Of a stretch of 64,000 nt of DNA, positions 52,911 to 59,409 are shown in pieces. Within the stretch, counting starts at the first letter, position 1. The number at the start of each line of letters is the position of its first letter. Both the position numbers and the translations under genes were made by a program. The stretch is from an uncultured bacterium (GTDB lineage: Bacteria > Cyanobacteriota > Vampirovibrionia > Gastranaerophilales > Gastranaerophilaceae), in NCBI GenBank assembly GCA_950022495.1, contig CATLLJ010000002.1, forward strand, positions 124,001 through 188,000, written 5' to 3'. The notes below the pieces were generated by a model. That model made no database searches. It saw nothing but the letters and a program-made list of their open reading frames with translations, and was not told the DNA's origin.

Positions 52911-53671
52911 ATGAGAAAAGCATTTACATTAGCAGGTACTACACATGCAACTCTGCGAAAGAATGCCGTAAAATTTGGCTTTACACTGGCTGAGGTATTG
53001 ATAACTCTTGGAATAATTGGTGTAGTTGCAGCAATGACTATTCCTAATCTTATTCAATAATATAAAGAAATAGAAATCGTAGTAAAATTAAAAAAAGCAT
53101 ATTCGGTACTTATAAATGCTCATAGACAAGCTAAAAATGAATACGGATTTGATTATAAAAGTGATCTTGACTGGTCATCAAGTCAAAGCTATCAAAGAGG
53201 GTTCCTTGAAAAATTGATGGCTTATTTAAATATAGCAAATGATTGTAAAAACAGTAGAAATGCTTGTTATGTCAGTATAAACAGTAAAGGCGATGCAGCA
53301 TATTATACAAGTTTAAAACCCAAAACAGGATATAATAATTTTCAAAGTTCAATCAATTCCTCGGTATTATTGCAAGATGGTACACTTATTGCAATAACAC
53401 AAAGTGGGAACAAAGAAAAACACCACATAATATAATGATAGATATAAATGGTCCCCAAAAACCAAATCAATACGGATATGATACTTTTTTCTTTGAAATG
53501 GCAGACTATATAGCAAACGACCAAATTATTCCACATGGTGGAACAGGTGCACATGACTGCAAACGAAAAGATACAAATAAACAGGGCACAGGTTGTGCGT
53601 GGTGGGTTTTAAATAAAGAAAACACTAAATATCAGCGCTGTGATAATCCTACATTACTGACATGTAAATAA
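52911..53671 (+). pseudogene. Decayed prepilin gene (nonsense codon plus frameshift)
   Basis: Starts well: GGAGTTAAAA-ATG, leader MRKAFTLAGTTHATLRKNAV, then FGFTLAEVLITLGIIGVVAA and MTIPNLIQ. Codon 50 is TAA (53058-53060). The same frame continues to 53435 with YKEIEIVVKLKKAYSVLINA and MAYLNIANDCKNSRNACYVS, and the remainder (INGPQKPNQYGYDTFFFEMA, CAWWVLNKENTKYQRC) is in another frame, joined at TAATG (53433-53437). The family normally has 'vDvNG.kgPN.yGyD.f' here, so both parts belong to one ~250-residue ancestral protein. Located between rbfA and infB on the opposite strand. Confidence 0.85.
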
Positions 53672-57632: not shown

Positions 57633-58471
57633 CTATTTGTACAAGGAATCCCAATAACCTTTTGCCGGATTCTGCGGATTTTGATCTTTTTTCGCCCAAT
57701 CATAACAACCTCGTCCGTTAAAACGAGATGTATCTGTATTATTACAGAGTTTATTCCAGCCACCAGTTGTATAAATAAACAAATCATATCCATATCTGTT
57801 TGGACCTTGAAATGGACCATTAGTATCAAATGTAAATGTTATACCGTCCCCTGCACCATGATAGAAATAAGTTAAAGAAGTAACAGTCGCACCGCTTTGT
57901 AACAAATACATATAGGGTTGATTAACAGTTATATACTCCATTCCGTAGACATTTTCATAATTAAGTACTTCCTTAGTACCTTTAAAATTTGTTACCTTCT
58001 TTTTATAAGTTCTAAGGTCATTTCTCGTCAGACGGGTTACACCTGCGAATTGACTCCCCCAGTACAAATCAACTTCGCTAAAATAGGGTTTATTTTCTTC
58101 TTTAGGAACAGTATTAAGAGTATTAAAATCATTAAAACTGTCCACCGAAAATTCCTGAGAAGTTTTTTTCATAGCTTGCTGCAAAACCGCATCCATTTTC
58201 GTAAATTGAACTTTTAAGACTTTTCGCTGGATATTTTGATAAATTGAAGGCATAGTCATAGCAGCAATAACACCAATGACACCAAGGGTGATTAGAACTT
58301 CTACTAATGTAAAACCAAATCTCGCGGCAATTGGCAGCAAAGTTACGGGCCTAGCACCTTCTGCAAGGGGAAAAGCCGAACCAAAATTAATAGCACCGGA
58401 AAAACCAGTAAAAGAAAGCTTTAAACGGTTACCCCCCCCCGAACTTCCTTATGTAATAATAATTTTGACAT
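57633..58471 (-). CDS. Prepilin-like gene switched off by a poly-G frame (phase-variable candidate)
   Basis: ATG at 58471 with AGGAG 7 nt upstream gives MSKLLLHKEVRGGVTV and then TAA, because of a G9 tract (58432-58440). With G10 (or G7) the frame runs through a ~55-residue leader containing NFGSAFPLAEGARPVTLLPI into ARFGFTLVEVLITLGVIGVI and a complete ~225-residue prepilin with QFAGVTRLTRNDL, DTNGPFQGPNRYGYDLFIY and CNNTDTSRFNGRGCYDWAKK. As sequenced, only an internal TTG (58340) could start the intact part. The homopolymer just after the start codon is the classic layout of slipped-strand ON/OFF switching; an assembly error is the alternative. Confidence 0.8.
58432..58440 (-). repeat. G9 homopolymer in prepilin 5' coding region
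   Basis: Nine consecutive G (C on the plus strand) in an AT-rich genome; no other G/C run of this length occurs in the window. Confidence 0.85.
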
Positions 58472-58491
58472 TTTTACTCTCCTATATTTTA

Positions 58492-59409
58492 CTAGTTATT
58501 TTTTCTATTTTGAAGTCTCAAATTTGCAATTTCTTCTCTAATTTCATTTGAGCGATGCGACAATTGGTTATAAACCTGCGAATTTATTTCACCACCAATC
58601 AGAAGAAGGATTGACGTATAATAAAGCCATATCATTAGAATGAAAAACGCACCAATCGTACCATATACAAGGTTATATGTACTTAAATTATTTACATACA
58701 CCGAAAATCCCCACGAACCTACAAGCCAGAATGTTGTAAAAAATACTGTTCCTGGCAGTGCACTTTTACGTTTAAATTTTTCATTTCCTCTCAAATCAGG
58801 CAGGATATAGTAACTCAAAAATGCCATTAAATATAATGCTAAAAATGACACCGGCCAACGTAAAGTTAAAATAGTAATAGCAACTGTTTTAGACATATTA
58901 AAATGAGCTACCAAAAACATTATAATAACTTTACCAAAAATGATGACGTTAATTGTTAAAAACAGAACCAGAATATTTACAAACACCATCAAAAAAGATA
59001 AAATCCTTGTATAAATAAAACTTCGTGTCTCTTCAACTTTGTAAGCTCTGTTCAAGCCCTTCAGCACAACGGCAACCCCGTTAGTTGAAAGTACTATTGT
59101 CATTATAATCCCGATTACAGCAAGCAATTTGCCGTGGTTAAATATCATAGTTTCTTCAAGTACGGATTTTAACAAATTCATAGCCTGCATCGGCATAATG
59201 TTTGAAAGAACTCTCAAAATCGAATCCAGATAGGAACGATTGCCCATCCAGCCAAAAATTGCCATTAAAAATAACATAAAAGGAAAAATTCCAACAACAA
59301 GCATAAAGCCCATTTCTGCTGCCATTCCGTAAAAATCATTTTGAATAACAGATTTAATAAGACGAACCAACCCTCTTATATATTTATTTTTAAGCAGTTT
59401 CTTTAACAT
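58492..59409 (-). CDS. YihY/BrkB (UPF0761) family membrane protein
   Basis: 305 residues with six predicted transmembrane helices. Family marks: DFYGMAAEMGFMLVVGIFPF at the N-terminus, STNGVAVVLKGLNRAYKVEE, PGTVFFTTFWLVGSWGFSVY and YGTIGAFFILMIWLYYTSIL with LLIGGEINSQVY. Once mis-annotated as RNase BN; function unknown. Overlaps the end of nrnA by 7 nt. Confidence 0.9.
   Translation of the reverse strand: MLKKLLKNKYIRGLVRLIKSVIQNDFYGMAAEMGFMLVVGIFPFMLFLMAIFGWMGNRSYLDSILRVLSNIMPMQAMNLLKSVLEETMIFNHGKLLAVIGIIMTIVLSTNGVAVVLKGLNRAYKVEETRSFIYTRILSFLMVFVNILVLFLTINVIIFGKVIIMFLVAHFNMSKTVAITILTLRWPVSFLALYLMAFLSYYILPDLRGNEKFKRKSALPGTVFFTTFWLVGSWGFSVYVNNLSTYNLVYGTIGAFFILMIWLYYTSILLLIGGEINSQVYNQLSHRSNEIREEIANLRLQNRKNN

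Follow-up and report, generated by a model that had tools for sequence, protein, structure and literature searches.

A run of nine guanines parts a start codon from a prepilin frame

Why does a prepilin gene of an uncultured Gastranaerophilales bacterium lie out of frame with the start codon in front of it, parted from it by a run of nine guanines? The locus belongs to a 64,000-nt stretch of DNA, here called the window, and an earlier note on this DNA had described a ribosome-binding site and ATG leading into a G9 tract, with a stop at codon 17 and a prepilin frame that one extra G would open without any other lesion. Both parts of that description were borne out. On the minus strand, the order of elements is AGGAG-AGTAAAA-ATG-28 nt-G9-TAACCGTTTAAAGC; the first G of the tract (58440-58432) lies 31 nt past the A of the start codon (58471), and at G9 the ATG frame closes with TAA at 58423-58421. 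With one more G, the frame runs to the stop at 57635-57633, giving ~279 codons compared with the ~275 estimated earlier. From the tract onward, ~266 codons of the prepilin frame are open without other lesion. The features of the locus are as follows.

58479..58483, minus strand: Shine-Dalgarno AGGAG, read from the sequence; AAGGAGAG-type sites lie 5′ of the ATG in most sister cassettes
58469..58471, minus strand: start codon ATG of the leader, read from the sequence; the ATG-to-tract distance of 28-31 nt is alike in most sister cassettes
58432..58440, minus strand: G9 tract, the putative switch, read from the sequence; homologous tracts are G8-G14
58421..58423, minus strand: TAA closing the ATG frame at G9 (codon 17), read from the sequence
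58314..58440, minus strand: part of the leader read in the prepilin frame, with no stop between tract and predicted cleavage site, and containing a duplicated prepilin-start module (FPLAEGARPVTLLPIAARFG)
57633..58313, minus strand: predicted mature prepilin FTLVEVLITLGVIGVIAAM... with stop codon, 226 aa, based on TIGR02532, Pfam N_methyl and predicted fold
58486..58514, minus strand: weak sigma-70-like promoter match 5′ of the ATG, a consensus match only

Promoter-like matches to the sigma-70 consensus number 9 in this region against 6.2 expected. The G9 run is the sole run of G8 or longer in the window, and dinucleotide shuffles of the window contain a mean of 0.14 G8 positions. By poly-G criteria the locus is a candidate for switching: a G run of at least 7 lies in the 5′ coding region, and its length sets the joining to a long frame. 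The prepilin gene is flanked by a YihY/BrkB-family gene and prfA, and its DNA over ~58374-58249 shares 82-84% identity with three other prepilin loci of the same genome. A second prepilin in the window (52911-53671, plus strand) is broken by TAA ~26 codons past FTLAEV; this pseudogene has no G tract and carries a duplicated start module (FTLAGTTHATLRKNAVKFG).

The product is a predicted type IV-like prepilin

The window protein scores 19.6 bits against TIGR02532, the prepilin N-terminal domain (cut-off 16.3), and is also matched by Pfam N_methyl. It combines a GFxxxE cleavage/methylation motif with a predicted N-terminal hydrophobic helix, as expected of a prepilin, whereas equivalog models for the named pilins GspG, ComGC and PilA all scored far under their cut-offs. 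An AlphaFold model of low confidence (mean pLDDT 64) shows a long N-terminal helix and then beta strands; owing to the low confidence, a PDB structure search with the model returned no significant match. Machinery for processing and assembly is encoded in the host genome, including a prepilin peptidase (A24_N_bact domain 116.8 bits, with Peptidase_A24 itself under cut-off) and GspE/PilB-type assembly ATPases (T2SSE ATPase 417.6 bits). A termite-gut relative possesses pilA, pilB, pilC, pilT and pilD (PMC5877343).

Most long G tracts of the host genome front prepilins

The 1.93 Mb host genome contains 48 prepilin N-terminus matches and just 16 runs of G8 or longer, 12 of which, on the coding strand, follow a start region and precede a prepilin gene. 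The chance of 12 of 16 such runs fronting prepilins is ~1e-26 by a binomial calculation that ignores paralogy. A common cassette recurs at the 12 loci, comprising AAGGAGAG, ATG, a TTGAAATTCAATAATATTAAGAAAATC-like leader, G9 or G10, and TAACCTTTTAAAGC. The Shine-Dalgarno site and ATG are clear in 11 cassettes, and all 11 are out of frame as assembled. Most other prepilins in the genome have no G tract and begin with short leaders such as MKKAFTLAEV. One further cassette copy (L095) has a decayed tract; tracts broken by substitution in relatives, which the earlier note had named as speaking against switching, amounted to an occasional decayed copy of this kind.

Two other G9 tracts of the host genome (L063 657-665, C3:138656; L072 811-819, C18:12010) lie in frame inside genes that, by eye, encode a small Gly/His/Pro-rich secreted protein and a hexapeptide-type acetyltransferase.

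A shared 5′ cassette is spread unevenly among relatives

Of 46 genomes of the genus, 14 contain the G8-TAACC pattern, as do 19 of 286 sampled from the order; the reversed control gave almost no matches. A longer form of the pattern occurs on eight contigs of the GTDB r220 collection, including Gastranaerophilales Zag_111 and Cyanobacteria SIG26. Counts of CG9 tracts are very uneven: 50 in G007, 35 in G013, 30 in G001, 22 in G060, 13 in the host and none in many genomes. Elsewhere the same layout appears with its own flanks, namely G11-CACCGTTAAAG (G007), G12-CATTTTTAGC (G044) and G11-14-TAAAAGCC (G051). Ascertainment bias from searching for G8 or longer was set aside, as the right flank alone recovered essentially the same sites.

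Leaders and flanks are on the whole closer within a genome than between genomes, and the mature parts are diverse. Leader identity is 0.83 within versus 0.58 between genomes for G007 and 0.88 versus 0.53 for G040, with little or no such difference in the sister genomes G001 and G060. This within-genome likeness of leaders, combined with diverse mature parts, points to spread of the 5′ cassette over the prepilin family by gene conversion or recent duplication. The cassette also fronts secreted proteins other than prepilins.

Tract-fronted prepilin frames are open and under purifying selection

We collected 108 loci from the host and related genomes in which a prepilin start lies at most 600 nt from a tract. 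In 104 of these, no stop interrupts the prepilin frame between tract and prepilin start; a neutral leader, with stops as dense as in the other frames, would give ~43. Among leaders 40 codons long or longer, 33 of 37 are open against 3.4 expected. The other two frames are blocked in 169 of 170 cases. Orthologue pairs gave dN/dS values of 0.09-0.25, though most of the genes are out of frame as assembled. These values come from sister genes, since the window gene yielded no usable orthologue, its nearest match having 39% identity at a contig edge. Taken together, open tract-to-prepilin frames and low dN/dS suggest that translation of tract-fronted prepilins probably begins, at least on occasion, at the upstream start, and that these genes are under selection. 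In G013, intergenic short repeats (e.g. CHSEGEARKNPADSLKSWIAS) are inserted into leaders with the frame unbroken (L144-L166, L282), and many contigs of this genome end at these cassettes.

Tract lengths vary and are mostly out of frame

Homologous tracts span lengths of 8-14. Syntenic orthologues L183 (G060) and L332 (G001) are a single G apart: L183 has G9 and is out of frame, and L332 has G10 and is in frame. Their DNA identity is 89% downstream and 84% upstream; the L183 leader also resembles that of a second G001 locus, L331. A second syntenic pair, L179 (G11) and L182 (G9), is two G apart at 89.5% identity over 1.55 kb. These comparisons concern sister loci, with one genome per species, and the window locus is not among them. 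Within G001, prepilin cassettes with equal ATG-tract distance include ten G9, three G10 (in frame) and one G11 tract. Such a spread of G9, G10 and G11 among like cassettes and between orthologues is the sequence signature of a slipping tract. The earlier proposal that the prepilin undergoes slipped-strand poly-G phase variation thus gains support from comparison, through more than 100 loci, open frames, frame-flipping lengths and purifying selection.

As assembled, only 8 of 93 prepilin loci are in frame (85 OFF), where neutral random phase expects one-third. Truncated leader-only loci are in frame in 0 of 23 cases, and other secreted or unassigned frames in 4 of 17. The commonest tract length varies by genome (9, 11 or 12), but in almost all genomes it is one that leaves the gene out of frame. 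We rejected treating the 93 loci as independent, because the cassettes share descent and simple tests are thereby inflated. Counting each genome-configuration once left 6 of 41 in frame (p 0.006), shuffling lengths within genomes gave p 0.001 for the OFF excess, and conservative per-configuration tests gave p 0.006-0.017. The excess of OFF states beyond two-thirds is partly due to shared descent. We read it as a population whose default is OFF, with ON cells rare.

Probable slipped-strand switching and its alternatives

The best explanation, to which we assign a probability of about 80% on the comparative evidence, is that the locus is a translationally phase-variable prepilin gene switched by slipped-strand changes in its poly-G tract. 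Ribosomes would begin at the ATG at 58471 and pass into the G tract of the leader; at G9 they would terminate at codon 17, and no pilin would be made (OFF). Replication slippage to a length that joins leader and prepilin frame would turn the gene ON. The leader would then be cut off by prepilin peptidase together with the residues that the tract encodes, so that the mature pilin would be identical at any permissive length. About a dozen loci in the host genome, and dozens in some relatives, share the start-leader-tract cassette; with independent slippage, every cell would express a small pilin set of its own. With such a G run in front of dozens of sister pilin genes across the host and its relatives, random on-off switching of many surface fibres is probable in these bacteria. 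We infer that the tract slips in the living population and that ON protein is made and assembled, with a role in adhesion or in immune or phage escape. As a point against switching, MutS1 is present throughout the genus, in genomes with or without tracts alike, so mismatch repair is not obviously missing; loss of MutS was accordingly ruled out as the cause of the many tracts.

The shortage of in-frame loci relative to the neutral one-third counts against this explanation and is where programmed slippage enters as its main rival. In that model the tract is held out of frame, and slipping by RNA polymerase or the ribosome yields a low, steady pilin level without DNA switching. Under-representation of in-frame states (8/93 loci; 6/41 configurations, p 0.006; permutation p 0.001) would fit, as would purifying selection that persists on out-of-frame genes. 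However, the frame correction needed is +1 at about half of the loci and -1 at the others, even within one genome, which rules out a programmed ribosomal frameshift of fixed direction. Tract length also drifts among orthologues, some of which are in frame, and the avoidance of in-frame lengths suggests a role for the length of the DNA tract itself. We therefore consider programmed slippage unlikely as the principal account, and possible as an added or alternative route.

Less probable still, the window gene could be a pseudogene, dead or decaying, with a leftover cassette. Sister copies do decay (L070 has lost its start, L073 has a break in the N-terminal helix and L095 has a broken tract), and another prepilin pseudogene lies nearby at 52911; against this, the ~266 open codons include a leader that would have been free to gather stops. 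Least credible is an assembly or sequencing error concealing a constant, in-frame length: published G-tract lengths can depart from the commonest length in culture (PMC9187656), but many independent assemblies, with over 100 such loci between them, show lengths of 8-14, mostly out of frame, and a frame-blind error would not avoid in-frame lengths.

Relation to known phase-variable systems

Poly-G phase variation is known mainly from the pathogen lines Campylobacter, Helicobacter and Neisseria, and from Bifidobacterium pili. Neisseria pilC and the Chlamydia polymorphic membrane proteins (Pmp) are phase-variable through a homopolymeric G tract early in the gene. The loci described here resemble them in having an early G tract in a pilus-related or outer-membrane gene, and one relative (G042) encodes Pmp repeats; unlike them, pilin-like subunits themselves would be controlled, and the tract sits in a leader expected to be cleaved.

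The nearest known case is the pilus G tract of Bifidobacterium breve, in which a poly-G switch of G10-G12 acts on sortase-dependent pilus genes; the tracts were ON in ~3% and 6.5% of a culture at two loci, and this share rose in mice (PMC9187656). Both cases involve a gut commensal, a G tract early in a pilin gene and an out-of-frame reference sequence. In B. breve, the pili are sortase-dependent, one or two clusters occur per genome and the tract lies between signal peptide and LPXTG part, whereas here the shared cassette fronts a family of type IV-like prepilins that numbers from one dozen to several dozen. In Campylobacter, poly-G/C tracts of 7 or more, many per genome, have been proposed to be phase-variable (PMC6321876). 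Some of the present genomes likewise carry many tracts, with run lengths within the Campylobacter range. Campylobacter poly-G tracts serve diverse, mostly unrelated genes; in the present genomes a single paralogous family predominates, and even the start cassette is common to its members.

Poly-G switching is thus already known, and what is new is its concentration on one pilin family, the shared start cassette, the tract in the leader and the strong OFF excess. In the open-licence literature, we found no report of poly-G phase variation in Gastranaerophilales or Vampirovibrionia, and pairing Melainabacteria with phase variation gave one match there, a flagellin survey. We tentatively propose, at slightly under even odds, a wider reading for gut Gastranaerophilales. 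Gene conversion or duplication would have carried a dedicated cassette (Shine-Dalgarno, start, short basic leader, G tract and TAACC-type flank) across a large family of prepilins and also onto Pmp-like secreted proteins; most copies would be OFF by default, and each cell would show few of its dozens of pilins. Such a system would be the first simple-repeat phasome reported from the Melainabacteria/Cyanobacteriota line. In this gut lineage, few members of which have been cultured, most long G tracts belong to one pilin family, and because the tract sits in a leader expected to be cleaved, switching would leave the mature product unchanged. Such a switch would help explain the large number of prepilins in these genomes, and automatic annotation may miss or shorten them.

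Secreted proteins and repeated starts behind G tracts

In other species, large secreted proteins lie behind the G-tract motif of the prepilin cassettes and start with VTLKALSxAALAG (that motif read in another frame) or VTSKALLAALLLG signal peptides. Loci of this kind are L131 and L167 (G007), L108 and L122 (G010), L132 (G040), L111, L172 and L173 (G042), L116 (G058), L192 (G188) and L193 (G084); several are in frame as assembled, and the L111 protein has Chlamydia-type Pmp repeats. Other genera of the family carry repeated G12-TAACC contexts peculiar to them (L191-L227 in G154; L195-L228 in G201), some of which front prepilin-like frames in G154 and some of which, in G201, lack an obvious gene. 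Prepilin leaders often hold one or two extra prepilin-like starts (FTLAxGATHVxxxPxxAxxG) 5′ of the real FTLAEV, as in L075, L076, L077, L079, L178 and L277, and the window gene has one (58374-58314). These extra starts look as if the leader grows by partial duplication.
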